Source: an uncultured Flavobacteriaceae bacterium (lineage in GTDB: Bacteria; Bacteroidota; Bacteroidia; Flavobacteriales; Flavobacteriaceae). From it: a stretch of DNA of 48,197 nucleotides. A program made the translations under genes and the position numbers. The notes beneath the pieces are model-generated. The model worked only from the letters and a program-made list of their open reading frames with translations. It was not told where the DNA came from and searched no databases. Location of the stretch: positions 1-48,197 of the forward strand of contig CAJQLD010000063.1 of NCBI GenBank assembly GCA_905479095.1, in the 5' to 3' direction. The first letter of the stretch is position 1, and each line of letters begins with the position of its first letter. This document shows positions 8,285-48,197 of this stretch, in pieces.

Positions 8285-11200
8285 TTAACCTAATAACAAC
8301 TTAATCTCTATGTTTGAGTTGACATAAACCAGTATTTTTTTACTGACTTTATAACCCATTTCTTGAACAATATCAGAATAGGTCTCCAATTGAGTCTCGT
8401 ATTTATCGTAATGATCGCCAGTTTTATAGTCGATAATGACTGCTGTTAAGTCCTTAAAAAGAACCAATCTGTCTGGGATGATTATGGTTCCAGATGCGGT
8501 CATAATTTCGCGTTCATTGTAAACCTCAACATCAGAACTATAATACGGAGTTAATAATGGGTGACTCACAATTGCTTCCAAAGTACTAAAAAGTTCATCG
8601 CTTTGAGTCGATGAAATCACGCCTGCATTAAAAAAATCGAGCAGTGTCGTTTCAATATCAGATTTAGTATAAATCTTTGACATTAGTAAATGAATTAAAT
8701 TCCCTTTCTCAAGTGCATCTTTTTGGGATGTATCCCACAAGTACCCTGCATTCGTCGCCATCGACACATTGAGGTGTTCTTTAGGGGTCGATATAAATTC
8801 GCGCTGAAGTACTGTTGGGTATTTTGCAGGTTTGGGCAGATCAATTTTTTCAAACACCCCAAATTCATATTCAAATGTTGCGCCTTCCCAATTACCAATT
8901 GATTTTAGATAATTAATTAAAAGCCCTGAATATGTTTTAAGGTTTTCTTCTCCTTTTTTGGAAACCGACGCATTTCCTACAATGTATAACTGCTCGACGG
9001 CTCTTGTAAGAGCGACGTATAACAAGTTAATGTTATCGAGTTCTAGTTTTGATTGATGATCTCTAAAAATAGATTCTCCTTCCGAACCGTAGGCCTCAAA
9101 GTCTTTGTTGTAATTTAATAAAAAATGTGAAAAAGGTGCGTATGACGATTCCAACGGCATCCATTCTTTTGGCTCCAATTCTTTATAAATGTCTAACTCT
9201 GCAAAGGGAAAAATGACCACAGGAAATTCCAATCCCTTCGATTTATGAACCGTCATAATTTGAACCGCATTAATGCCCTTTGGAGTCACTACGCTTAAAC
9301 TATCTTTTTTAAGGTTATAATGATCTATAAATTGTTGAATACTCGGAGTTGGTTTTTGAGTGAATTCAAGTACAAAATCTAAGAAAAACTGAATATAGGC
9401 ATTCGATGTTTTTGACAATCGAAAACTACTAATTATATACTCAACAGATTCATAAATAGAAAGCTGGAGAGCAGTCGTCGGAGAAAACTGAAGCCCTAAA
9501 GGTTCTAGTGATTTGAAAAATGCCGTTCGGTTTAACGGAATGGATTTAGATCGAAACAAATGGGAGTCACCCAACTCGTTATGGGCTAAAATATAATTGA
9601 GAACTTCCAATTTTGCTTCCATGTTTGAAGGCTCGTGCAAATACGTTAACAGGCTAATAATATATTTGACTTCTGGTGATTGCGCCACTAAAAGGGTCTC
9701 GCTCGAAACAATATCGATTCCGTTTTGGCTTAATAAGTTTGCTACCGCAATCCCTTCTTTACGTTTTCGGACGAGCACACAGATGTCTTTCCATTTAGCG
9801 TCTGGGCTTGAATCTAAATAGGTAGTTATAATTTTTAAAACTTTTTCCGCATATAAAAGTTGTTTGTCAGACCCTTTTTCAAATTCTAAAAAAGAAATAT
9901 TGACATAGCCAGTTTTAGCATTAAACTCTAATTGAGGGGGGGATTGGTATAGCGATTTATACGTCTCATTTGAAAAAGTAACGTTCGATAGGTGTTCAAA
10001 AAAATTATTATTGAAGTCCACGACTGTCTTGCAACTTCTGTAATTTGTTGGAAGATGAGAAAGCGTAGCGTCAAAAGGAAATGCTGTCGCGTTATTATGT
10101 AAATTAATAAACTGCTCCGCCTTTCCACCTCTCCAGCGATAAATTGCTTGTTTAGCATCCCCAACCAACATAGCACTGCCGTTTTCTTCCGCTAGTGTAT
10201 TGGTTAACAATGGCACCAAATTTTCCCATTGCAACTCGGAAGTATCTTGAAATTCATCAATAAAAAAATGATTAAACTTTTCGCCTATTCGCTCATAAAT
10301 AAAAGGAGCTGGTTGATCTTTTATCTGTTGACTTATGATGGTGTTAAATTCGGAGATCATCAAAAGGTTCTCTTCGTCTTTAATTATTTTTAATTCTTGA
10401 TAGATCAAATTTAGGACAGAAAGCGGTGTGGTGTTTTTTCGAATATTTTTTAAATAGCGGTAACGATACACGCCTTGCTTCGTTTTATGAAATGCATCGA
10501 CAAGCTGAGGGCGAAGTGCATCAATTGCTTCAGCAACGTGTGGCGGCGCTTTTTTTGTATATAACGAAGTTGTTTCGATGGATATTTGCCATACTGCATC
10601 AAGCTTGATATCAAATTTTTTGGAAGCTAAGGCCGTAAAATGTTTTGGTAAGGACCCTCTTGTAAAATCTGAAAATTCAACGCCGCTCGCTGAAATTGAT
10701 TCTAAAACTTGGATCGATTGTTCTGCGATTTCTGTCTCAATCGCGTTAATATCGTTTGTTAGCTTTGTTTTTAGGTCTTGGAAATCCTGCAACGACCGTT
10801 GCGAAAGCGCCTTTAAAAATGGCGCATCGGTTTCACTGATTAAAAGCTTTGCTGTTTTGACTAGGTCCAAAGCAATGTTCCAACTCTTATCGTCATCTGC
10901 TTTTTCAATTGCAAACGCAACCAATACTTTTGTGAGCGCCTTGTTTTTTCCTGCTTTTGAAAGCAACCTATTGACGGCTTTTTGGAGTAAATGATCGGTA
11001 TCGAGTTCTACTTCAAAATTCATGGGAAGTTTTAAATCAAAAGCAAAAGTCCGAATCAATTTTTGAGTAAACTTATCAATAGTTGAGATGTCAAAGGCTG
11101 CATAATTATGCAGAATTTTACTTAAGAGTTGTTTGGATTTGGCATGAATGATCGTCGGAGAACTCTCCAACTCGTCCACAACTTGTTCAAATAACGCGTC

Positions 11201-11422
11201 TGGCTGACTCAAAATTGTTGGCGAAGCAAACGTCATCAGTGCTCCTACAATCCGCGTTTTCATTTCATCGACAGCTTTGTTTGTAAAGGTAATTGCTAAA
11301 ACGTGGCGGTGTGGCAAAAATTCTTTAGAGGTTAAAACTATTTTTAAATAGTCTTTTACCAAAGTAAATGTTTTACCACTCCCTGCCGAAGCATTATAGA
11401 TATTGAATGTTGATGCGCTCAC
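8285..11422 (-). CDS. addA: AddA/RecB-like UvrD-family helicase with C-terminal nuclease
   Basis: A 1045-residue superfamily 1A helicase. Motifs in order are Walker A ASAGSGKTFTL (11-21), motif Ia AITFTNKAVDEMK, motif II FIDEFQDTSE, motif III LVGDAKQAIYRWRGG, motif IV NYRS, motif V TVHKSKGLEFP and motif VI YVALTRA. A C-terminal PD-(D/E)XK nuclease follows: PDRLV with Asp984, then IIDYKTG with Asp998 and Lys1000. This is the layout of AddA, the motor of a dual-nuclease recombination complex. The partner is the AddB-like protein at 3877-6633. It is divergent from the superoxide dismutase gene and starts at an ATG at 11422. An orthodox RecB is less likely because no recC or recD is in view. Confidence 0.9.
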   Translation of the reverse strand: MSASTFNIYNASAGSGKTFTLVKDYLKIVLTSKEFLPHRHVLAITFTNKAVDEMKTRIVGALMTFASPTILSQPDALFEQVVDELESSPTIIHAKSKQLLSKILHNYAAFDISTIDKFTQKLIRTFAFDLKLPMNFEVELDTDHLLQKAVNRLLSKAGKNKALTKVLVAFAIEKADDDKSWNIALDLVKTAKLLISETDAPFLKALSQRSLQDFQDLKTKLTNDINAIETEIAEQSIQVLESISASGVEFSDFTRGSLPKHFTALASKKFDIKLDAVWQISIETTSLYTKKAPPHVAEAIDALRPQLVDAFHKTKQGVYRYRYLKNIRKNTTPLSVLNLIYQELKIIKDEENLLMISEFNTIISQQIKDQPAPFIYERIGEKFNHFFIDEFQDTSELQWENLVPLLTNTLAEENGSAMLVGDAKQAIYRWRGGKAEQFINLHNNATAFPFDATLSHLPTNYRSCKTVVDFNNNFFEHLSNVTFSNETYKSLYQSPPQLEFNAKTGYVNISFLEFEKGSDKQLLYAEKVLKIITTYLDSSPDAKWKDICVLVRKRKEGIAVANLLSQNGIDIVSSETLLVAQSPEVKYIISLLTYLHEPSNMEAKLEVLNYILAHNELGDSHLFRSKSIPLNRTAFFKSLEPLGLQFSPTTALQLSIYESVEYIISSFRLSKTSNAYIQFFLDFVLEFTQKPTPSIQQFIDHYNLKKDSLSVVTPKGINAVQIMTVHKSKGLEFPVVIFPFAELDIYKELEPKEWMPLESSYAPFSHFLLNYNKDFEAYGSEGESIFRDHQSKLELDNINLLYVALTRAVEQLYIVGNASVSKKGEENLKTYSGLLINYLKSIGNWEGATFEYEFGVFEKIDLPKPAKYPTVLQREFISTPKEHLNVSMATNAGYLWDTSQKDALEKGNLIHLLMSKIYTKSDIETTLLDFFNAGVISSTQSDELFSTLEAIVSHPLLTPYYSSDVEVYNEREIMTASGTIIIPDRLVLFKDLTAVIIDYKTGDHYDKYETQLETYSDIVQEMGYKVSKKILVYVNSNIEIKLLLG

Positions 11423-11489
11423 TAAATAAAATTTATACCAAAATAAACAATCTTAATTATATAAGCTCGTAATTTTTATTTGATTATTG

Positions 11490-11497
11490 TAAATTTG
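11490..11497 (+). promoter_or_regulatory. Candidate -7 element for sodA
   Basis: TAAATTTG matches TAnnTTTG exactly and lies 33 bases before the ATG at 11531. No TTTG is present at the right distance upstream (the nearest is only 7 bases away), so only the -7 box is supported. Confidence 0.4.
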
Positions 11498-11530
11498 AAC
11501 GAAACATTTAAACACTTAAAATAAATTCTT

Positions 11531-12139
11531 ATGGCTTTTGAATTACCAAAATTAAATTACGCTTATGATGCACTAGAGCCTCATATTGATGCTCGAACAA
11601 TGGAAATCCACCATTCTAAACATCATAACGGTTACACCAACAATCTAAACGCTGCCATTGCAGGCACTGATTTAGAAAATAAATCCATAGAGGCAATTCT
11701 TGGAAACTTAGACATGTCTAATAAGGCAGTTCGAAATAACGGAGGTGGGTTTTATAACCACTCATTGTTTTGGAATGTCATGAATCCTGAAGGGAAGGAA
11801 GCACTTTCTGGAGAGCTGAAAGACGCTATTGTTGCGGCTTATGGATCTTTTGAAGATTTTAAAACTGCTTTTAGTAAAGCGGCTGCAACTCAGTTTGGAT
11901 CTGGATGGGCATGGTTATGTGTTCATAAAGGTGGAAAAGTAGAAGTTTGTTCTACACCAAATCAAGACAATCCATTAATGCCAGGCGTATCTTGTGACGG
12001 CACTCCAATCTTAGGATTAGATGTTTGGGAACATGCTTATTACTTGAATTACCAAAATCGTCGTCCAGATTATATTAATGCATTTTTTAATGTAATTAAC
12101 TGGAAAGAAGTTAATGCTCGTTTTCAAGCTGCAAAATAA
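11531..12139 (+). CDS. sodA: Superoxide dismutase (Mn/Fe)
   Basis: A 202-residue cytoplasmic superoxide dismutase converting superoxide to oxygen and hydrogen peroxide. Metal ligands by alignment to E. coli SodA are His27 (MEIHHSKHH), His77 (FYNHSLFW), Asp164 and His168 ([10 protein letters not shown]). The active-site glutamine sits in the C-terminal domain (PNQDNPLM), the position typical of manganese enzymes, while the N-terminal position holds Gly in GGGFYNH. The enzyme is therefore likely Mn-type, or cambialistic as in other Bacteroidetes. There is no signal peptide and full length. It forms a single-gene unit with a perfect -7 box and a strong terminator. Regulation by oxidants or iron cannot be read from the sequence. 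Confidence 0.95.
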
Positions 12140-12162
12140 GCTTTAGGAAACTATAGAAAATA

Positions 12163-12191
12163 AAAAAGGTGAACTTGCGTTCACCTTTTTT
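12163..12191 (+). terminator. Intrinsic terminator after sodA
   Basis: Perfect inverted repeat AAAAAAGGTGAAC / GTTCACCTTTTTT with a 3- to 4-base loop, 24 bases after the stop. Its A/T symmetry allows bidirectional use, but purF ends over 120 bases away. Confidence 0.85.
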
Positions 12192-12313
12192 GCCCCAAAT
12201 CTACCATGAACTTAACCTACTTATGTTATGGTGAGTCAAAGATAGCAGTTTAATGTATAGTAGAAGTTTATTTTAGACGAACTGCTGTTTTATTAGATAA
12301 AGTGTATTTTCTA

Positions 12314-14212
12314 TCAATAAGCTCTTTCGTTATTCCCTTCAAAAAAGTTAATAAATGCTCGATTGACAACCCGATTTCCACCTGGTGTTGGATAATTTCC
12401 TGTGAAATACCAGTCCCCTAAGTTTTTTGGACAAGCAATGTGTAGGTTTTCTATGGGTTGGAAAATAATTTTGACCTCCGCTTTAATCCCGTCTTCACTT
12501 AAAAGTTCTGCTATTTTATCAGACAGTTGTTCGGGGGTAAAGGGTGCATAAATTTCTTTCACGAAATTTTGAACCTCGGTATCAACTAAATTTTCTTGAG
12601 CTTTACATCGGGTGTAGATTTCTTCAACTAAGTGGTATTTGTTTTGATCTTTTAATAATGATAATGCTGCTCTAAACGCCACCAACCCTTCAAGGTTTGC
12701 CATGTCAATTCCATAACAATCTGGATACCGAATTTGCGGAGCGGAAGACACCACAACGATTCGCTTGGGTGACAAACGATCCATCATTTTTAGGATACTT
12801 TTCTTTAAAGTCGTCCCTCGTACGATGCTGTCATCAATAATCACAAGGTTATCCTCTGGCTTAATAACGCCATAAGTCACATCATACACGTGTGCAACCA
12901 AATCATCACGACTGCTATCTTCGGTAATAAATGTTCGAAGTTTAACGTCTTTGATAGCTATTTTTTCGATGCGAGTGCGTTCTGAAAGAATCTGAGTGAC
13001 TTTTTCAGCAGACAAGGATCGTGTCCCGTTTAATATTTTTTCTGTTTTCTTTTTGTTTAAATATTCCTCAACTTCTTCAATCATTCCAAAGAATGAGGTT
13101 TCAGCGGTATTAGGAATGTAGGAAAATACGGAGTTTTTTATATCGTAATCAACCTGCTTCAATACTTCAGGAACAATCAATTTTCCTAATAATTTTCGTT
13201 CTTGATAGATTTCAGCATCACTCCCTCTAGAAAAATAAATTCGTTCAAATGAACACGCCTGCCGCTCTAAAGGTTCAAGAATTTGATCAATAGACGTTTC
13301 GCCTGATTTTTTAGTGATAATGGCGGTTCCTGGGGGCAATTCGTGAACTTGATCAAAATCGACATTAAAAACAGTTTGAATCACAGGGCGCTCTGAAGCC
13401 ACTACAACCACTTCATCGTCCATATAATAATACGCAGGACGGATCCCAGAAGGGTCTCTTAAAACAAAAGAATCGCCATGACCTAGGAGTCCAGCCATTG
13501 CATATCCACCGTCCCAATTTTTGGCCGCTTTGGTTAATATTTTCTTAAGATTGAGTCGTTCTGCAATCAATGGCGAACACTCCATTTTGTTATACCCTTC
13601 TTTTTTAAGCTTTTTGTATAATTTTGAAACCGCATCATCTAGAAAATGTCCTATTTTCTCCATGATGGTAATTGTATCCGTGTACTCTTTAGGGTGCTGT
13701 CCAATTTCAACAAGATTTTTAAATAGACTTTTAACATTAGTCATATTAAAGTTTCCTGCTAAAATCACATTTCGGTGCATCCAATTATTTTGTCTCAAAA
13801 AAGGATGAACACTTTCGACGCTGTTTTTTCCAAACGTCCCATATCGGACATGTCCTAATAGAACTTCCCCTAAATAAGGCACTATCTTTTTTTGTGCCTC
13901 CGTATCATCAGCTACTTCAGGGTGGGCTTCTAACACATCATTGATACGCAAATTGATTTGCGAAAAAATATCTTGAATGGGTTGTTGGGCGACTGAGCGC
14001 ACACGGCTTATGTAGCGCTCTCCGGGCTGCATGTCTAATTTTATACTAGCAAACCCTGCGCCATCTTGACCACGGTTGTGCTGCTTTTCCATAATAAGGT
14101 ACATCTTATTAATGCCATAAAAAGCCGTACCGTACTTCTTTTTGTAAAAATCTAATGGTTTTAAAAGTCTGATGTGTGCAATTCCACATTCATGTTTTAT
14201 AGCATCGCTCAT
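12314..14212 (-). CDS. purF: Amidophosphoribosyltransferase, long Bacteroidetes form
   Basis: The first committed step of purine synthesis: PRPP plus glutamine gives phosphoribosylamine. The N-terminal nucleophile is Cys9, preceded by the short propeptide MSDAIKHE that must be removed. The glutaminase signature HVRYGTFG is at 121-128. The PRPP loop VIIDDSIVRGTT is at 457-468, followed by a YGIDMAN segment near 500. The protein is 632 residues against roughly 470-510 for the usual enzyme; extra segments lie around residues 160-235 and 375-425. This long version is common in the phylum as I remember it. A second, shorter PurF may exist elsewhere, and I cannot exclude that this copy is a paralog. 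A terminator of the preceding kinase gene lies between 14253 and 14276, so purF has its own promoter. Confidence 0.88.
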   Translation of the reverse strand: MSDAIKHECGIAHIRLLKPLDFYKKKYGTAFYGINKMYLIMEKQHNRGQDGAGFASIKLDMQPGERYISRVRSVAQQPIQDIFSQINLRINDVLEAHPEVADDTEAQKKIVPYLGEVLLGHVRYGTFGKNSVESVHPFLRQNNWMHRNVILAGNFNMTNVKSLFKNLVEIGQHPKEYTDTITIMEKIGHFLDDAVSKLYKKLKKEGYNKMECSPLIAERLNLKKILTKAAKNWDGGYAMAGLLGHGDSFVLRDPSGIRPAYYYMDDEVVVVASERPVIQTVFNVDFDQVHELPPGTAIITKKSGETSIDQILEPLERQACSFERIYFSRGSDAEIYQERKLLGKLIVPEVLKQVDYDIKNSVFSYIPNTAETSFFGMIEEVEEYLNKKKTEKILNGTRSLSAEKVTQILSERTRIEKIAIKDVKLRTFITEDSSRDDLVAHVYDVTYGVIKPEDNLVIIDDSIVRGTTLKKSILKMMDRLSPKRIVVVSSAPQIRYPDCYGIDMANLEGLVAFRAALSLLKDQNKYHLVEEIYTRCKAQENLVDTEVQNFVKEIYAPFTPEQLSDKIAELLSEDGIKAEVKIIFQPIENLHIACPKNLGDWYFTGNYPTPGGNRVVNRAFINFFEGNNERAY

Positions 14213-14252
14213 TGGAGTGTTTTTATTAGATATTTAAATATTATTAAAAAAG

Positions 14253-14276
14253 AAACGCGCCAAATATGGCGCGTTT
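14253..14276 (-). terminator. Intrinsic terminator after the PfkB kinase gene
   Basis: Perfect GC-rich inverted repeat AAACGCGCC / GGCGCGTTT with a 6-base loop, two bases beyond the stop of the kinase. It is followed by a T-rich tract on the minus strand and sits directly upstream of purF. Confidence 0.85.
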
Positions 14277-14278
14277 TA

Positions 14279-15208
14279 TTAGTTTGTTAATTCAATTTCA
14301 AATTGCGTTAATTCTTTAAACGCTTTAAGGCGGGCGCGTATTTCTTCAGGCCTTAGTGATTCGAGGCGCTCCGTTCCAAATTTTTCGACACAAAATGAGG
14401 CAAGCGTGGATCCGTAGATAACCGCTTTTTTCATGTTTTCAAATGATATGTTTTCTGATTGTGCTAAAAACCCTGCAAACCCTCCTGCAAAAGTATCTCC
14501 TGCGCCTGTAGGGTCAAAAACAGACTCTAACGGCAATGCCGGTGCACAAAACACATTGGCATGGTTAAATAATAATGCACCGTGTTCTCCTTTTTTGATT
14601 ACTACATATTCAGGTCCCATGGCGTGAATTTTTTGAGCAGCCTTTACTAAAGAGTGTTCTCCTGTAAGTTGACGCGCTTCTTCGTCATTGATGGTAATAA
14701 CATCGACGCGTTTGATCACTTCAATCAACGGTTCGAGTGCGTTATCCATCCAAAAATTCATGGTATCCAAAATAACTAATGTCGAAGTGTTTGTCATTTG
14801 ATCTAAAACACTCGATTGGACAAATGGATGTAAATTTCCTAAGACCAAAATGCTCGCATCTTGGTATGTCTTTGGCACGATCGGTTGAAAGTTTTCTAAG
14901 ACGTTGAGCTCTGTTGCTAATGTATCTCTAGAGTTCATATCATTGTGATAGCGTCCACTCCAAAAAAATGTTTTGCCCTCTTTAATCATTTCAATACTAG
15001 AGATGTCAATATCTCTATCTGAAAAAAGATCTAAATAAGCTTGAGGAAAATCGCCTCCAACAACAGAAACAATGGCACTATCAACCTCAAATTGCGAGGC
15101 AGAAAGCCCTATGTATGAAGCAGATCCACCAAGAATTTTATCGGTTTTTCCAAAAGGGGTTTCAACGGCATCAAATGCTACGGTGCCTACAATTACTAGT
15201 TTACTCAT
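14279..15208 (-). CDS. PfkB/ribokinase-family sugar or nucleoside kinase
   Basis: A 309-residue kinase. The N-terminal glycine motif is GGSASYIGLSAS (27-38), and the C-terminal signature DPTGAGDTFAGGF (232-244) holds the catalytic base Asp238 and the anion hole. The phosphate donor would be ATP. The substrate cannot be fixed from the sequence. Adenosine, ribose or another nucleoside is plausible given purN and purF on either side in the same orientation, but that is context only. Its stop codon lies two bases before a strong terminator. The gap of about 80 bases to rnhA upstream includes a small palindrome, so it may be the last gene of a purN-rnhA-kinase unit or independent. Confidence 0.88.
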   Translation of the reverse strand: MSKLVIVGTVAFDAVETPFGKTDKILGGSASYIGLSASQFEVDSAIVSVVGGDFPQAYLDLFSDRDIDISSIEMIKEGKTFFWSGRYHNDMNSRDTLATELNVLENFQPIVPKTYQDASILVLGNLHPFVQSSVLDQMTNTSTLVILDTMNFWMDNALEPLIEVIKRVDVITINDEEARQLTGEHSLVKAAQKIHAMGPEYVVIKKGEHGALLFNHANVFCAPALPLESVFDPTGAGDTFAGGFAGFLAQSENISFENMKKAVIYGSTLASFCVEKFGTERLESLRPEEIRARLKAFKELTQFEIELTN

Positions 15209-15266
15209 AAAATACTATAAAAATTATGGCGCAAAGTTACGCATTTTTTAGTCTTTATAAAAAGAT

Positions 15267-15281
15267 ATTCCTCAGAGGAAT
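15267..15281 (-). terminator. Small hairpin downstream of rnhA, weak terminator candidate
   Basis: ATTCCTC A GAGGAAT, 7-base arms, nine bases after the rnhA stop and followed by a T-rich stretch on the minus strand. The single-base centre means the real stem would be shorter, so this is only a candidate. Confidence 0.35.
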
Positions 15282-15289
15282 GACATAAC

Positions 15290-15931
15290 TTATTTGCGTC
15301 CAAAATCTGCCGGAATTTCACCCCATGCTTTGGTTTCCCATTTTACAATAGTCGTTTCATACGCATTGTTTTTAAGCCACTTCACCGCGCGATCTACAAG
15401 ATCAAACAATTGGGCGTTCTTAGGGGATCTCTGCAATTTGGTGTTACACTGTTTTTTTTTGACCCAGCTCATTGCCGTTCTTGAGTCTGTATACAGAATT
15501 CGTTGACTGTCTTTTTGTTTTAAAAGCGCCAATCCATGTACCAGTGCCAAAAACTCCCCAATATTATTGGTTCCCTGGTCAAATGGACCTTTATGAAATA
15601 GCTGTTTTTTAGACTGAGTGTCCACACCTCGATACTCCATTATTCCTGGGTTTCCACTCGATGCTGCATCGACAGCTATCGAATTATAGTTGGGCTGGCC
15701 TATCAATTTCAAGCGTGCCTCGGAGAGGCCAGTAGTGAGTTTTTTAGACTTCCCTATATAGTCTCTATAATTTCCTTGGAGTGCTGTTTTTGCAGATTCA
15801 GCGGTTGGAAATGACTTGTATTGTGCACCTTCAAAACTTGTGATTTGTAATTTACATTCGTTCCACGTTTCAAAAACACCTGTACGATGCCCTTTCCAAA
15901 CCGTGTAATATTTCTTTTTGGATTTAGACAT
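15290..15931 (-). CDS. rnhA: Ribonuclease HI with N-terminal viroplasmin domain
   Basis: A 213-residue nuclease that degrades the RNA strand of RNA-DNA hybrids. Residues 6-50 form a viroplasmin (caulimovirus VI) domain, with the aromatic pattern YYTVWKGHRTGVFETW that binds hybrids. A linker follows, then the RNase H fold from about 82. The catalytic residues are Asp88 (AVDAASSGNPG), Glu126 (NIGEFLAL), Asp149 (YTDSRTAMSW) and Asp209 (GEIPADFGRK). The start overlaps the last 8 bases of purN, so the two are co-transcribed. The linkage to purine synthesis is probably an operon convenience, not a functional link. Alternative small RNases H lack the N-terminal domain, so the assignment is firm. Confidence 0.92.
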   Translation of the reverse strand: MSKSKKKYYTVWKGHRTGVFETWNECKLQITSFEGAQYKSFPTAESAKTALQGNYRDYIGKSKKLTTGLSEARLKLIGQPNYNSIAVDAASSGNPGIMEYRGVDTQSKKQLFHKGPFDQGTNNIGEFLALVHGLALLKQKDSQRILYTDSRTAMSWVKKKQCNTKLQRSPKNAQLFDLVDRAVKWLKNNAYETTIVKWETKAWGEIPADFGRK

Positions 15932-16490
15932 CAGACAAAAGAATGGTTTGAATGACTTCAGGAAAATGCTCCATTTCTAATTGGTGAATTTTAGAAGCTA
16001 CTTCAATCGCAGAATCTGTTTTGTGAACGGCGCAGTTCGCCTGAAAAATAATAGCCCCTTCGTCATAGTGTTCATTAACATAATGAATCGTGATTCCGGT
16101 TTCTGATTCGTTGTTTTTAACGACCGCCTCGTGCACATGCATGCCATACATCCCTTTTCCTCCATATTTTGGCAATAGCGCTGGATGGACATTCACGACT
16201 TTGTTTTTATACATTTCCAATAAGTGCTCTGGAAATTTCCATAAAAAGCCCGCTAGGACGATTAAATCAAGGTTTGGTAAGTTTTCAAGCCCCCATTTAG
16301 GGTCATTAAGTTGCGATTTATTAAAAATAACCGTTTGAACTTCCAATGCAGCGGCACGCTCTAAAACTCGCGCTTTTGGATTGTTTGTAAGCACCAAAAC
16401 AACCGATACAGTTTTGGTGTTTTTAAAATACTTAATGATGTTTTCTGCATTAGTTCCAGATCCAGAAGCAAAAATCGCAATGTGTTTCAT
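15924..16490 (-). CDS. purN: Phosphoribosylglycinamide formyltransferase
   Basis: Third step of purine synthesis: transfers a formyl group from 10-formyltetrahydrofolate to GAR. At 188 residues it is slightly shorter than the E. coli enzyme. The phosphate-binding loop SGSGTN is at 9-14. The catalytic triad is Asn100, His102 (NVHPALLP) and Asp143 (HYDEGAI). The segment ETGITIHYVNEHYDEG is characteristic of the family. It is first in a unit with rnhA (8-base overlap). The region upstream to acpP is a divergent intergenic of 180 bases in which I see no clear promoter on this strand. Confidence 0.94.
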   Translation of the reverse strand: MKHIAIFASGSGTNAENIIKYFKNTKTVSVVLVLTNNPKARVLERAAALEVQTVIFNKSQLNDPKWGLENLPNLDLIVLAGFLWKFPEHLLEMYKNKVVNVHPALLPKYGGKGMYGMHVHEAVVKNNESETGITIHYVNEHYDEGAIIFQANCAVHKTDSAIEVASKIHQLEMEHFPEVIQTILLSDV

Positions 16491-16632
16491 TAAAAAATTT
16501 TAAGGTTGAAATTCTTTAACAAAAAAAAGAAAAAGAATTCACAATAAGAAGCAAAAACGCAATAGTTAACTCAATATGACATAAATAAGTGCACATTTTT
16601 GAAGTAATGATGCGTTTTAATGTAAAGTTTTT

Positions 16633-16640
16633 TATTTTTG
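16633..16640 (+). promoter_or_regulatory. Candidate -7 element for acpP-fabF-rnc
   Basis: TATTTTTG matches TAnnTTTG exactly, 31 bases before the acpP ATG. The nearest upstream TTTG (16598-16601) is 31 bases away, which is too far, so the -33 element is unresolved. Confidence 0.4.
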
Positions 16641-16670
16641 CAATCTAATTAAAACTTAAAATTAAATATT

Positions 16671-16904
16671 ATGTCAGACATTGCATCAAGAGTAAAAGCG
16701 ATTATCGTGGATAAATTGGGCGTTGATGAAAACGAAGTAGTAACAGAAGCTAGCTTCACAAACGACCTTGGCGCAGATTCGTTAGATACTGTAGAGCTCA
16801 TAATGGAATTTGAAAAAGAATTCGACATTCAAATCCCAGACGACCAAGCAGAAAACATTGCGACTGTAGGTCAAGCTGTTTCATATATTGAAGCTGCAAA
16901 ATAA
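16671..16904 (+). CDS. acpP: Acyl carrier protein
   Basis: A 77-residue acidic protein. The 4'-phosphopantetheine attachment serine is Ser37 in [15 protein letters not shown]. It carries the growing acyl chain during fatty acid synthesis in the cytoplasm. Length and helix II sequence are typical of a housekeeping ACP. It is followed after 16 bases by fabF, the standard bacterial arrangement. Confidence 0.96.
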
Positions 16905-16920
16905 CACCTTTTAATTTTTT

Positions 16921-18171
16921 ATGGAACTAAAGCGAGTTGTAGTAACAGGTCTTGGAGCATTGACTCCAATTGGCAATACAAAAGACGCTTATTGGGACGC
17001 CCTGATAAGTGGAAAAAGTGGTTGTGCGCCTGTGACGTATTTTGATACAGAACATTTCAAAACAAAATTTGCTTGTGAACTAAAAAATTTCGATGTATCG
17101 GACTTCTTTGATCGTAAAGAAGCTCGTAAAATGGATCGGTTTGCGCAATATGCTATGGTGGCTTCTGACGAAGCCATCATAGATGCCAAACTAGATTTAG
17201 ACGCTACAAACAAACTTAGAGTCGGCGTCATTTGGGGTGCTGGAATTGGTGGAATTGAAACCTTCCAAAACGAAGTGATGAACTTTGCCAATGGTAATGG
17301 AACCCCAAGATTCAATCCCTTTTTTATCCCTAAAATGATTGCAGATATCGCCCCTGGTAATATCTCTATCAAACATGGATTTATGGGGCCAAACTACACA
17401 ACCGTATCGGCATGTGCCTCTTCGGCCAATGCTATTTTTGACGCTTTAAATTTAATTCGTCTTGGGCATTGTGATGTTATTGTTAGTGGTGGTAGCGAGG
17501 CAACGATCAATCAATCAGGTATGGGTGGATTTAATGCCATGCATGCACTCTCTACAAGAAATGAAAGCCCAGAAACTGCTTCAAGACCTTTTGACGGAAC
17601 CCGAGATGGTTTTGTTTTAGGAGAAGGCGCTGGTGCACTTATCTTGGAAGAATACGAACACGCTAAAGCTAGAGGCGCAAAAATCTATGCAGAACTTGTT
17701 GGTGGCGGGCTTTCTTCAGATGCTTACCATATGACCGCACCGCACCCTGATGGGATTGGTGTTATTGCTGTTATGAAAAATTGTCTTGAGAACGCAGGGT
17801 TAAAGCCTGAAGACGTAGACGCCATTAATACCCATGGAACTTCGACTCCACTTGGAGATGTTGCTGAACTGAAGGCCATTAAAGAAGTTTTTGGTGCTCA
17901 TGCCAAAAACATAAATATTAATTCTACAAAATCCATGACTGGTCACTTACTTGGTGCCGCTGGAGCGATTGAAGCCATTGCGGCTATTTTATCCATAGAG
18001 CATGGTATTATTCCTCCAACGATCAACCATACAACGCCAGACGAAAACATTGATCCTGAATTAAATCTTACCTTAAATAAAGCTCAAAAGCGAGACGTTA
18101 ATGTTGTGATGAGCAACACGTTTGGTTTTGGCGGTCATAATGCATGTGTTGTTTTCAAAAAACTAGATTAA
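16921..18171 (+). CDS. fabF: 3-oxoacyl-ACP synthase II
   Basis: A condensing enzyme that extends acyl-ACP with malonyl-ACP. It is 416 residues, full length. The catalytic triad is Cys165 (VSACASSAN), His305 (NTHGTSTPLGD) and His342 (KSMTGHLLGAAG). The C-terminal GFGGHNACVVF strand is the family signature. It lies between acpP (16-base gap) and rnc (6-base gap), so the three form one operon. FabF rather than FabB is indicated by the close match of the Cys-His-His spacing and by linkage to acpP. Confidence 0.96.
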   Translation: MELKRVVVTGLGALTPIGNTKDAYWDALISGKSGCAPVTYFDTEHFKTKFACELKNFDVSDFFDRKEARKMDRFAQYAMVASDEAIIDAKLDLDATNKLRVGVIWGAGIGGIETFQNEVMNFANGNGTPRFNPFFIPKMIADIAPGNISIKHGFMGPNYTTVSACASSANAIFDALNLIRLGHCDVIVSGGSEATINQSGMGGFNAMHALSTRNESPETASRPFDGTRDGFVLGEGAGALILEEYEHAKARGAKIYAELVGGGLSSDAYHMTAPHPDGIGVIAVMKNCLENAGLKPEDVDAINTHGTSTPLGDVAELKAIKEVFGAHAKNININSTKSMTGHLLGAAGAIEAIAAILSIEHGIIPPTINHTTPDENIDPELNLTLNKAQKRDVNVVMSNTFGFGGHNACVVFKKLD

Positions 18172-44490: not shown

Positions 44491-45000
44491 ATGAACTGGT
44501 GTATGCTAATCCCCTTAATCGTTGGACTATTATCTGCGTTATTCGGCTACCTTCTAGGCCGCTTATTTAACAAACAGAACGACTGTAAAAATTGTGATGA
44601 CTATAAATTACAAATTAAACGCCTTGAAGCAGAACTAAAAGCTTGCAAGAATAAAAAAACAAGTACAGACGCCTCTTTCAAAAGAGTGGATTCTACTAAA
44701 TCATTATTTAATGCAGCCTTGGCTAAAAGTGTGTTTGGAAGACCCATTAAAGAAAATGACCTGACGGTTATTGAGGGAATTGGGCCAAAAATCCAACAAC
44801 TATTTCACAACAATGGCGTGAGAAGCTGGAAAGCTTTGGCGGAGTGTAACATTGAAAGGTGTCAAACAATCTTAGACAGTGGTGGAGACGCCTTTAAAAT
44901 GCATGTCCCTGGAACATGGCCAAAACAAGCCCGCTTAGCATACGACGGTAAGTGGAAAAATTTGTTGGAATGGCAAGATGAACTGGACGGCGGGAAATAA
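44491..45000 (+). CDS. Membrane protein with helix-hairpin-helix domain
   Basis: A 169-residue protein with a membrane helix at residues 5-23, a short coiled coil at about 36-54 and a helix-hairpin-helix at 91-117 (LTVIEGIGPKIQQLFHNNGV). The conserved tail has the form TWPKQARLAYDGKWKNLLEWQDEL. Similar anchored HhH proteins occur in many bacteria, often annotated loosely as L21-like or DUF4332-like. Such a hairpin can bind DNA but also mediates protein contacts. It is co-transcribed with the OmpA protein upstream. The role is unknown; linking envelope to nucleoid is speculative. Confidence 0.8.
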   Translation: MNWCMLIPLIVGLLSALFGYLLGRLFNKQNDCKNCDDYKLQIKRLEAELKACKNKKTSTDASFKRVDSTKSLFNAALAKSVFGRPIKENDLTVIEGIGPKIQQLFHNNGVRSWKALAECNIERCQTILDSGGDAFKMHVPGTWPKQARLAYDGKWKNLLEWQDELDGGK

Positions 45001-45005
45001 TAAAC

Positions 45006-45063
45006 GAGAACAAAAGCTCCTATTATCCGGAAATATATACCTATAAACAGGGCGTTTGTTCTC
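45006..45063. repeat. Imperfect hairpin after the OmpA/HhH unit
   Basis: Arms GAGAACAAA (45006-45014) and TTTGTTCTC (45055-45063), with weaker pairing inside. There is no T-run, so it is not a standard terminator. The right arm is followed directly by CATATAACAAG, similar to the end of the palindromic element at 47957-48068. Confidence 0.4.
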
Positions 45064-45064
45064 C

Positions 45065-45087
45065 ATATAACAAGTTGTGTGCAATAT
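45065..45087 (+). repeat. Left inverted repeat flanking the lipoprotein gene
   Basis: A 23-base sequence containing GTTGTGTGCA. It matches the reverse complement of 47941-47963 at 19 of 23 positions. Confidence 0.55.
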
Positions 45088-45158
45088 AAAGGAACTATGT
45101 TTTCATCCGAAAATCATAGATTATTAATAATAAGTTGGATATAAAAAATTAAATAAAT

Positions 45159-47939
45159 ATGAATTTAAATAAATACATATACTTAGTTATAATTTTACTT
45201 TCATTAGGTTGTGAAAAAGAAGAAAACAATGAACCAACAGTAATTATTGACAATCCTATTGAAATAATAAAAGGAGGTTCAGAATCTGGAGAATATGGTG
45301 TTATAGATTATAACGAAAATACTATTAGATTGAGTTCAGTACTCAAAAATGAAATTATAGATATTACTGAAAATGAGTTGACTATAAATAAAGTTTTTTA
45401 TCCCGATGAAATTTTAATAGGAGATGTTTTATTTTTTGAAAATGAAACTTTCCAAGCTCAAAAATTAGCTAAAAATTCAAAAAAAAATATGACAAATGAG
45501 AATTTTTATTATTCTCGAATAATTACAGATATTTTTGAGTCCGAAAAAACATATCTAATTAAAACCAAAAATGCCAAGTTAACTGATGTTTTTAAATCCA
45601 TTAATTCAAAAAATTCATTTATTCCTGATTTCTCAAACATAGTATCTAAATTAGATAATGTTAAGATTAAGGTTGATAATAATTCTATTTCTTTCTCAGT
45701 TATCTTATATGATAAAGATGGTGATAATCAAACAAAAAAAGATCAAATTAGAGGAATCTATAAATCAACATATGTAAGCGGTGGAATAGATTTTGAATTA
45801 AATAAAACCCCATTAATAGTTACTTCTAATATTAAAATGAATAATTCTATAGTTTTAGATGAAGAAGTGAATATTGAGTACGGTCCTAACATAAATATCA
45901 ATGATTATTTAGAAAATAAAATAAGATATCAAATAGATGAAGATGTTTACAAAATCAATAAAAAAATACCTTTTGTTATAATCTCTTTTATACCTAAACA
46001 AAAAAATCTTCCTTTTAAAATATCTCCAGAGCTACGTTGTTTAGTGTATTTAGATATAGACTTCAAAGGAATTGCAAAAACAGGTTTCAAAAGCACCTCA
46101 AAAACTACACTAAGTTTAAAAGCAGATGCCACAACACTTTTTACTTTAAAACCTACTCCAAGTGCCAAACTAGAAATCTCAAATCCAAATATGTTCATAG
46201 ATATTTCAGGAAAAGTAAATGCAGAAATATCACCACTAGCTTTTGGTATTGATGTGTTTTTTCCACAATTTTTTTCTGATAAAGAAAACTATATTAGTAT
46301 CACAAGTCATCCAATAAATTTTTCGATTAATTCTAAAGCTCAATTATATGCTAATTCTCTAGGAGAAAATTGTATTAACTTATCAGCAGATTATAGTTTT
46401 AAAACTAAAGTAACTCTTGACAGTTATATAGATGCTTTGTTTGGCAATGCTGAAATCACATTGGACAAAACATTAATTGAAACCGAATGGAAGCACGATT
46501 CTTTCTTTGAACCATTTGAAAAATGTTTAAATTTAAGTAATAGCGAATCTATAGAAATAATAGGCGATTTAAATTTTAATGAAGTTGAAGTAGGCACATC
46601 AAAAAATTTGGATTTTACTATTAAAAATAAAGGTGATGGAGTAATAAGTTTTAGTGAAATAAATATGCCTTCTAACTTTTCACACAACTTAAATCAAAGT
46701 GTCACTCTAAATAAAAATGAAACTAAAACAATAACTATAACTTTTTCTCCTTCTGAAGCAAAAAACTATTCAAATCAAGTTATCACTATTAAAACAAATG
46801 TTGGTGATGAGGAAGTAGTTTGTTATGGTGTTGGTAAGGAGTCTGCATCGTCAGAATCTTTAATTTCTTTAAGTGGTGATTTAAACTTTACAACTACAGA
46901 GGTTGGCTCTACAAGTCAAAAGACTTTTACCATAAAAAACACAGGAAATAAAAGTTTTAATGTTTCTAATATTAGTTTTCCAAATAATGTTTATTCTGCT
47001 AATTGGGATTCAGGAACAGTTAACGCAAATGATTCACAAGATGTTATAGTTACTTTTCAACCAATAAATGCCATTTCTTATAACGGAACAATAACAGTTA
47101 ATAACAATGCAGATAATGGAACTTATACAATGCCTATTTCTGGAAATGGCACTAATGGAAATACAGGAAATTCAGATATAAAAATAAATGATATTACTTT
47201 TGATGATGAAGGGAATGGAGAGTATGATATAAATGTGGATTTTATTAATATTGGAAATAAAGAAACACCAAATAATGAAACAATAAATATTGAATACTTT
47301 GTAAACGGTAATTCTATTGGAACAGATACTCACTCTAATATGAGTCCAAATGAGAATAGAATAGAATACTATAACGATTATGAGTTTCCTTATGAGGGTA
47401 TGCATAACGTAGAAATAAGAATATCCCAAGTTTCTAATGAAACTGAAATTTTCAACAATTCTAAAACAATAAGTTTTGATAATTCAAGTTCAAATGGTGG
47501 AAATATAACCTCAATTACACCTACAGATACTTGTAATGGTTCGCCAATAATTGAAGTAAATAAGTTCTATAATGTAAATGTCGACATTAGTAACTATGAA
47601 CTATACTCACCTACAGGAGGCGAAAGTTATGATGGTAAGGATATCAGAGGAATGTGGTTAGAAATTAATGTTCCTGATAATTGGTCAGGTAATCATACTA
47701 TTGCTATAGTTGATGTTAGTAGTAATTTTGACCCTGTAATAGCAATAAAAACTATTTGTAGTTCGTCATTCTATTTATATCAACCAAATACTTCTTTAAA
47801 TTATGGAAATATTAATGGTTATGGTCAATCAGATGGTTTTGTTTTTAACGCTAATGCAAGTAATAGATTTTTTGTTAGAATTTATCACTATTATGGTCAT
47901 GAAAAACCAAACATAACTTTTAAAATAAAAATAGAATAA
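45159..47939 (+). CDS. Large surface lipoprotein with Hydin/SPD-2-like and CARDB-like domains, probably acquired
   Basis: 926 residues. The lipobox LLSLGC puts the lipid on Cys18, followed by EKEE. The N-terminal half (about 20-460) is beta-rich and unfamiliar. Two choice-of-anchor/Hydin-type Ig modules follow at about 463-665 (pattern GDLNFNEVEVGTSKNLDFTI and GDLNFTTTEVGSTSQKTFTI). A CARDB-like domain lies at about 670-785 (VDFINIGNKETPNNETI, VNGNSIGTD), and a C-terminal jelly-roll-like region of about 145 residues carries no sorting signal for type IX secretion that I can see. The gene is visibly more AT-rich than its neighbours and is flanked by inverted repeats, which suggests transfer. 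Adhesion or binding is inferred from architecture. Confidence 0.82.
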   Translation: MNLNKYIYLVIILLSLGCEKEENNEPTVIIDNPIEIIKGGSESGEYGVIDYNENTIRLSSVLKNEIIDITENELTINKVFYPDEILIGDVLFFENETFQAQKLAKNSKKNMTNENFYYSRIITDIFESEKTYLIKTKNAKLTDVFKSINSKNSFIPDFSNIVSKLDNVKIKVDNNSISFSVILYDKDGDNQTKKDQIRGIYKSTYVSGGIDFELNKTPLIVTSNIKMNNSIVLDEEVNIEYGPNININDYLENKIRYQIDEDVYKINKKIPFVIISFIPKQKNLPFKISPELRCLVYLDIDFKGIAKTGFKSTSKTTLSLKADATTLFTLKPTPSAKLEISNPNMFIDISGKVNAEISPLAFGIDVFFPQFFSDKENYISITSHPINFSINSKAQLYANSLGENCINLSADYSFKTKVTLDSYIDALFGNAEITLDKTLIETEWKHDSFFEPFEKCLNLSNSESIEIIGDLNFNEVEVGTSKNLDFTIKNKGDGVISFSEINMPSNFSHNLNQSVTLNKNETKTITITFSPSEAKNYSNQVITIKTNVGDEEVVCYGVGKESASSESLISLSGDLNFTTTEVGSTSQKTFTIKNTGNKSFNVSNISFPNNVYSANWDSGTVNANDSQDVIVTFQPINAISYNGTITVNNNADNGTYTMPISGNGTNGNTGNSDIKINDITFDDEGNGEYDINVDFINIGNKETPNNETINIEYFVNGNSIGTDTHSNMSPNENRIEYYNDYEFPYEGMHNVEIRISQVSNETEIFNNSKTISFDNSSSNGGNITSITPTDTCNGSPIIEVNKFYNVNVDISNYELYSPTGGESYDGKDIRGMWLEINVPDNWSGNHTIAIVDVSSNFDPVIAIKTICSSSFYLYQPNTSLNYGNINGYGQSDGFVFNANASNRFFVRIYHYYGHEKPNITFKIKIE

Positions 47940-47940
47940 A

Positions 47941-47963
47941 ATACTGCACACAACACGGTATAT
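47941..47963 (-). repeat. Right inverted repeat flanking the lipoprotein gene
   Basis: Inverted partner of 45065-45087 (19 of 23 positions, with ten consecutive bases TGCACACAAC shared). It begins two bases after the stop of the lipoprotein gene. Confidence 0.55.
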
Positions 47964-48074
47964 AAAAAATAGCAGAATTAGTGCATACCCGAAAGTTTTT
48001 GTTTTATAATAAAGAAAGTTTCTAAACCGAAAGTAAACGCACTTTTAGTCTGCTACTTTTCATATACCAACACG
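47951..48074. mobile_element. Palindromic element with 7-bp direct repeats (MITE-like or attC-like)
   Basis: Imperfect arms, GTATATAAAAAATAGCAGAA and on to 47984, and the complementary arm 48039-48067 (GCACTTTTAGTCTGC then TACTTTTCATATAC), surround a 54-base centre. The whole is bounded by direct repeats CAACACG at 47951-47957 and 48068-48074. It encodes no protein. The direct repeats favour a non-autonomous transposon with target duplication; the long imperfect palindrome next to a single gene also resembles an integron cassette end. Confidence 0.45.
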
Positions 48075-48112
48075 TCAGACTGCGCAAAAACACATCATTT
48101 AACAGTTCTTTT

Positions 48113-48143
48113 TTTGTGAATAATAGTTGTTTTTTGTATCTTG
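48113..48143 (+). promoter_or_regulatory. Candidate promoter of the gene starting at 48167
   Basis: TTTG at 48113-48116, a 20-base spacer, then TATCTTG at 48137-48143, one T short of the full -7 consensus. Confidence 0.45.
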
Positions 48144-48166
48144 TAGACACCTCAAAATCAACACCT

Positions 48167-48197
48167 ATGCATCATATCGATCAAGAAATTGATAGAT
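48167..48197 (+). CDS. Start of a gene cut by the window end
   Basis: ATG followed by ten open codons (MHHIDQEIDR) to the edge. The promoter at 48113-48143 is placed correctly, about 24 bases before. Too short to identify. Confidence 0.4.
   Translation, partial: MHHIDQEIDR

Follow-up and report, generated by a model that had tools for sequence, protein, structure and literature searches.

How a single AT-rich gene came to lie between inverted repeats near the end of a contig is the question raised by one locus of the window, the whole 48,197-nucleotide stretch analysed here, which is contig C63 of a 2.23-Mb draft genome (G000) from an uncultured Flavobacteriaceae bacterium. The gene (45159–47939; all positions refer to the forward strand unless stated otherwise) encodes a 926-aa putative surface lipoprotein, which begins MNLNKYIYLVIILLSLGC, with what we read as a lipoprotein-type signal at its N-terminus, and contains two HYDIN/ASH/DUF1573-type Ig domains at about residues 470–559 and 573–664; the cargo is probably a surface protein. 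A sequence-only reading had described the gene as a single-gene mobile cassette that is richer in A+T and in AAT, ATA and AAA codons than its neighbours, and the composition computed along the region agrees with this. The GC fraction per kb was 0.234–0.284 over the gene compared to 0.33–0.43 in the rest of the window (26.4% for the whole cassette against 37.9% for the remainder), the three codons made up 22.2% of all codons compared to 7.0% in six neighbouring genes, and GC3 was 14% compared to 32% in the same six genes. None of the 298 other genomes sampled in the family has a relative of the protein's N-terminal half, and searches with the full protein matched Ig-domain stretches only, in 4 of the 59 relatives besides its own genome (5 of 60 when that genome is counted). 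Our reading, which we hold at a probability of about 0.88, is that the interval 45075–48074, from crossover to crossover, represents a single cassette that belongs to an integron-like system for gene capture in Bacteroidota.

The gene is bracketed by a 23-base inverted repeat at 45065 and 47941, in which 19 of 23 bases match, a value reached by none of 400 random place pairs in the window (maximum 16). The ten-base core reported as identical is indeed perfect, GTTGTGTGCA being present at 45074–45083 on the forward and at 47945–47954 on the reverse strand. Since exact inverted pairs of 10-mers spaced by 2.5–3.5 kb are not rare in the window (110 pairs), the core alone proves nothing, and the proof lies in the relatives. 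The left chromosomal flank is a gene for a 169-aa protein (44491–45000) with a helix-hairpin-helix-like stretch (HHH_5, E = 0.00085, under the cut-off of that family), which stands beside the locus in congeners too. Joined to this gene, at 44999–45046, are 15 codons reading NKREQKLLLSGNIYL and a stop codon. The tyrosine recombinase encoded elsewhere in the same genome (G000:C45) breaks off at a contig end (..KNDKREQK / ..AAAAATGATAAACGAGAACAAAAG), and the window reads ..GAAATAATAAACGAGAACAAAAG followed by the frame LLLSGNIYL and a stop, a tail seen in relatives, whose recombinases end ..LLLSG... The 15 codons are therefore read as a remnant of the recombinase 3' end and 45047–45074 as an attI-like site (..CATATAACAAG, with the putative crossover before the TT of GTTGTG), the same motif being found after the recombinase stop in relatives. 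An assembly error at the junction between the 44491–45000 gene and the recombinase tail is conceivable in principle, but the junction recurs in the congener G006.

Both flanks had also been described as carrying a hairpin whose right end reads CATATA-n-CAA. The common motif is real and forms the arm beside the crossover, of attI on the left and of attC on the right, and the right hairpin belongs to a conserved element. The left one, which lies mostly in the 3' end of the recombinase gene, is probably accidental, because its pairing is not kept in G006, where TTCTC has been replaced by TTAGC. A second copy of the right element was considered for the left hairpin and rejected, as the left flank consists of recombinase tail and attI.

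To the right of the gene, the cassette end TGCACACAAC (47945–47954) is the reverse complement of 45074–45083, the two being putative halves (R'' and R') of the attC that belongs to this cassette. It opens an attC-like site of about 130 bases (47945–48075; covariance model match 47948–48080, 90.1 bits), the left arm of which, GGTATATAAAAAATAGC (47957–47973), has two A opposite C, i.e. G-T pairs on the bottom strand, in the right arm GCTACTTTTCATATACC (48052–48068). The ends of this element are found again elsewhere in the genome, about 120 bases from each other; its two-arm pattern was present in 3 of 60 genomes (its own included), and read backwards it matched in none of the 60. In the relative G030, a row of genes has such elements between them. 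When 177 loci (1.73 Mb) were run through an exact two-arm scanner for the geometry AAC-n-arm-A-4-A-4 ... 4-C-4-C-arm-n-GTT, A opposite C gave 53 sites and the seven other letter pairs gave 0, 0, 0, 1, 0, 0 and 0; because some loci overlap, the 53 contain the same site more than once, and 40 distinct ones were kept. BLAST of the whole element against phages and plasmids, and of two other sites against phages, gave no full-length match, because the sites are too divergent. A covariance model, built from 42 sites (the 40 scanner sites, that of the window and a second one in its genome), did better and yielded 141 matches at E ≤ 0.001 in 75 sources, five of them in the window's genome and one in the window itself. 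The four others (in the loci L178, L180, L181 and L019) are on contigs C6, C33 and C52, and as two of them are near a contig end, the arrays of this genome have probably been split by assembly.

Where the top strand has A opposite C, the bottom strand has G opposite T and hence better pairing. The predicted fold energy was lower on the bottom strand for 118 of 137 sites (the 141 matches minus two reverse-strand shadows and minus two from L178, which is the same contig end as L181) compared to 166 of 410 random stretches, figures that are not independent, since the sites share a common descent and scanner hits served to train the model. For the site in the window, the energies were −13.0 (top) and −16.6 (bottom), and these predictions suggest a bottom-strand preference in attC-like folding. 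A hairpin directly after the stop codon would also be expected of an ordinary AT-rich gene with a structured RNA or terminator behind it, and such a gene would fit with the top-strand fold of the right element, which is not unusual compared to shuffles (z = −1.13). Such an arrangement is nevertheless highly improbable, as no curated Rfam family matches the element, the better fold is on the strand opposite to that of the gene, the cassette ends pair with each other, and different cassettes occupy the same place in congeners.

Sites of this type are widespread, being present in at least 134 of 149 family genomes, where the best 22 scored candidates per genome were considered, and in 96 of 198 phylum genomes sampled. 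Their boxes differ from those of classical integrons: the core GTTRRRY / RYYYAAC fits only 6 of 130 R' and 5 of 135 R'' boxes, GTT and AAC themselves being retained through the way the boxes were found, and the R' boxes are mostly of the GTTGTG, GTTGGC, GTTAGC and GTTACC types. By its sequence, the right flank is an attC-like recombination site and not a transposon end.

An integron cassette enters as a circle opened inside attC, so that GTTNNNN on its left and NNNNAAC on its right are halves of one site. The seven letters beyond GTT were compared with the reverse complement of the seven before AAC for intervals of 150–2500 bases between neighbouring co-oriented sites. The 88 intervals matched at a mean of 6.40 out of 7 letters, with 78 at six or more and 52 perfect, while shuffled partners gave a mean of 2.51 and a maximum of 3.11, and none of 2000 shuffles reached the observed value. 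For the 43 intervals in which both sites are outside the training set, the mean was 6.16 with 34 at six or more, which none of 5000 shuffles equalled. Six longer intervals, outside the count, had 0–3 matching letters in five cases and 6 in one, as expected if intervening sites were missed. The ends of the window's own cassette match at 10 of 10 letters, and tandem one-gene cassettes in the same orientation, each with a site at its 3' end, are what the arrays contain. A search of the genome for further copies of the repeat had been proposed; GTTGTGTGCA itself turned out to be cassette-specific, and what recurs is the GTT...AAC core together with the body of the hairpin that separates neighbouring cassettes. 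The notion of GTTGTGTGCA as a repeated target sequence was rejected, since the letters vary from cassette to cassette.

The same variation bears on another possibility, namely that the gene is carried by a transposon or a MITE-like element whose ends are terminal inverted repeats and which the neighbouring insertion sequence might move. That insertion sequence, which begins with GTCAGACTGCGC.. and an ORF reading MHHIDQEIDR.., does abut the right side (48074–48197, up to the contig end), and the 19/23 repeat would suit such an element. However, the family profile search found Ig-type domains only, and no transposase, in the gene that lies between the repeats, the repeat letters differ between cassettes yet pair within each, and the insertion sequence lies beyond attC, at the crossover, and is found elsewhere without the lipoprotein gene. 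A terminal-inverted-repeat transposon was rejected on these grounds, and we give it hardly any credence. This one insertion sequence, with a DDE_Tnp_1_6/DUF772 transposase, is found at the crossover end of attC-like sites not only in the window but also in L073 (about 9730 and 8107) and L075 (about 1600), the carriers beside the window being the congeners G001 and G012, as if it were targeting the sites. Insertion sequences that target attC are known, and the habit is comparable.

Comparison of the locus in close relatives, which the sequence-only reading had proposed as a check, revealed both another cassette and no array at the same place. The congener G006 has the same left junction (97% over 166 bases), and its match with the window stops at the crossover, after which a different cassette, two further cassettes and then a chromosomal stretch follow; from our reading of the frames, the further cassettes appear to be toxin-antitoxin-like and then GIY-YIG-like. 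Contig C6 of the window's genome has the last two of these cassettes at 99% followed by the same chromosomal stretch, and in the congener G001 the gene corresponding to 44491–45000 leads almost directly to that stretch without an array. From these three it follows that the lipoprotein cassette is the first after attI in the window's genome, in which contigs C63 and C6 would then be joined. The site in G001 was at first taken as never occupied, but since it shares 17 bases with the recombinase tail, an array may equally well have been lost from it. Had the gene been inherited vertically, most congeners should carry it at this locus, which had been named as the contrary outcome; it was found in none of them. 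The proposed single-gene mobile cassette is thus borne out, as one of integron type, by the lack of family relatives of the N-terminal half, the other cassette in G006, the array-less G001 and the deviant composition. The evidence for movement consists of static differences between congeners, from which, together with the paired ends, we infer cassette recombination at these sites. In G001 there is also a recombinase gene (L073, 6405–7528, on G001:C6) that is frameshifted, yet attI, one lipoprotein cassette and attC follow it.

The best matches to the integron integrase model TIGR02249 in the relatives are tyrosine recombinases of about 380–400 aa (the one linked to the arrays having about 385 aa), 20 of which were aligned; NCBI annotates such proteins automatically as 'site-specific tyrosine recombinase/integron integrase'. 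In a scan of named genomes, this extended recombinase was found in Lutibacter, Mesonia, Zunongwangia, Algoriphagus, Winogradskyella, Algibacter, Seonamhaeicola and other Bacteroidota. Of the sites found at 59 recombinase loci, 110 are downstream of the gene and co-oriented with it, 2 are upstream and none is opposite in orientation (279 kb downstream and 453 kb upstream), with at least one downstream site in 30 loci; among the 29 without, 21 have less than 1.5 kb of sequence left and 8 have 1.5 kb or more. Between the recombinase stop and the first cassette there is an attI-like stretch, often reading ..ATATAAC-n-AGTT, whose GTT box, 36–182 bases past the stop, matches the R'' of the first attC at 6–7 of 7 letters in 19 of 26 testable loci, while the remaining 7 have no GTT after the recombinase that is well matched to the first attC. 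The cassettes at the recombinase loci have a lower GC content than the DNA upstream of the recombinase (30.1% compared to 36.8%; lower in 66 of 75), so the composition signal noted for the lipoprotein gene is a general one. A Chryseobacterium plasmid (NZ_CP041688; L182), outside all model building, carries the recombinase and 4 co-oriented sites downstream. Within its positions 10017–17690, attI and 3 of the 4 attC crossovers are followed by the same GTTGGGAAAAATCGCCC.

Recombinase and sites also occur together. The N-terminal domain of the recombinase was detected in 85 of 149 family genomes, all of which carry sites, and in none of the 15 family genomes without a site among their best 22 scored candidates (Fisher 1.1e-6). 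In the phylum sample, 35 of 39 genomes with this domain and 61 of 159 without it have sites (Fisher 4.8e-9), the 35 and 61 having been counted by eye from two lists. It could be argued that the host XerC/XerD, as hijacked by some phages, or another recombinase moves the cassettes and that the recombinase of about 385 aa is a passenger: XerC/D-like genes are present in nearly all relatives (the matches of about 300 aa, which we take to be XerC/D), and of the 64 family genomes in which the extended recombinase stayed below the cut-off, at least 49 are among the at least 134 that bear sites. A passenger would, however, hardly explain the strict polarity and the attI match beside the extended recombinase in many genera, nor the co-occurrence in family and phylum, and we consider this alternative unlikely, though it is the least improbable of those weighed. 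In the site-bearing genomes without the extra N-terminal domain, the domain may be dispensable or its match may have been missed. Shorter TIGR02249-like recombinases without this domain (284, 278 and 282 aa) were seen in G018 (C13), G027 (C15) and G033 (C132), genomes with many sites, and could represent a second type of integrase within this system.

If a true IntI were at work, as in a classical integron, it would account for the architecture and for TIGR02249 matches at 209–219 bits (208.7–219.3 for three proteins, compared to the cut-off of 265), but none of the 60 relatives' genomes reached that cut-off. The extended recombinases have 64–66 residues between GKG..R and H.LRH, compared to 107 in five IntI (IntI1 included), and their alignment against VchIntIA (2a3v) breaks at residues 181–246; the short spacing and the gap indicate that the IntI additional domain around patch III is missing. 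This domain is given as a mark of IntI by Messier and Roy, as cited in PMC2426708 and PMC9668308. In a tree of 54 rows (leaving out L079, L081, L082, L083, L086, L087 and L089, which had no motif match), the five IntI formed their own clade (100/100) and the extended recombinases a 30-row clade (92/73). By sequence, the extended recombinase is outside the IntI clade; the deeper order of the tree is without support, and the two could possibly be sisters. With the separate clade and the scarcity of GTTRRRY boxes, a true IntI is very improbable, and it is the extended recombinase, rather than a standard integron integrase, that appears to run the integron-like system.

The best solved structures for the catalytic part, by both sequence and fold, are those of XerA (5hxy, 4a8e), so that this part resembles the Xer recombinases (archaeal XerA, XerC/XerD), which differ from the present enzyme in that it is linked to attI-attC arrays and has an extra N-terminal domain of about 85 residues. 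As the full-length structure search covers residues 89–368, this domain was folded alone (pLDDT 83). Its top fold match was the HARP domain of SMARCAL1 (4o66) with a probability of 0.92 and a weak Foldseek E of 0.063; Pfam HARP (PF07443) was touched by 2 of 18 members (best E 0.052), and the PDB sequence E was 0.82, likewise weak. The modelled fold is suggestive of HARP-like recognition of DNA structure, a lead as to the role that the domain would have in the system.

The site family, the paired cassette ends, the polarity, attI and the neighbour with another cassette are observed, and a mechanism of the following kind would connect them. A cassette consists of a gene and a 3' folding site (attC), the bottom strand of which would fold into a hairpin to be cut by the tyrosine recombinase at G|TT, and the circular cassette would be joined either into the attI that directly follows the recombinase gene or into a further attC. 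Opening of the circle inside attC would leave GTTGTGTGCA to the left of the gene and TGCACACAAC with the hairpin to the right, which would produce the inverted repeat described earlier. The cassette of the window would sit directly in attI behind the 15-codon recombinase remnant, with the intact recombinase elsewhere in the genome (G000:C45) acting in trans.

The integron architecture as such (IntI, attI and attC arrays) is already known, and the present system shares with integrons, notably with sedentary chromosomal ones, the tandem one-gene cassettes with a 3' folding site of about 130 bases, the cassette ends as halves of one site, the G|TT core, the predicted bottom-strand folding bias and the attI beside the recombinase. 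The recombinase type and the site boxes differ from those of known integrons, as does the orientation of the recombinase, which is the same as that of the cassettes. Like a CALIN (a cluster of attC without integrase), the array of the window stands behind a recombinase remnant instead of a whole gene; unlike a CALIN, it has an attI-like site, and a whole recombinase of the family is present elsewhere in the genome. In Bacteroidetes, complete integrons are described as very rare in PMC9024848, IntegronFinder 2.0 having found one (Salinibacter ruber) after earlier finds of integrase only. No paper on such a system in Flavobacteriaceae was met in the literature searched, outside which bioRxiv and most subscription journals lay, and one may be in print elsewhere. 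With about even odds, Bacteroidota run a second, separately evolved integron, whose Xer-like recombinase lacks the IntI additional domain and has acquired a HARP-like one that recognises folded or branched DNA and thus lets it handle attC hairpins, and which, though near-universal in Flavobacteriaceae, was missed as integron finders require IntI and attC of the GTTRRRY type.

If the system works as inferred, cassette capture would be one of the main ways in which a dominant marine phylum gains genes, and the limits of very many accessory genes could be placed to the base. How the I2 domain of IntI was selected before attC sites existed is called an open question in PMC4792948, and an attC-using recombinase without I2 makes it testable. 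Similar sites are also present in the Polaribacter phage P12002L, which has 8 matches to the site model at E below 0.001. According to a 2023 study (PMC9892861), its array is a CALIN without integrase, and the bottom strand of one site, P12002L_attC2, which may be any one of the 8 matches, was recombined by IntI1 into attI1, and the top strand gave no recombinants. In this lytic phage (L185, 30906–39713), the several attC-like sites, some of them short, are located around DNA methyltransferase genes.
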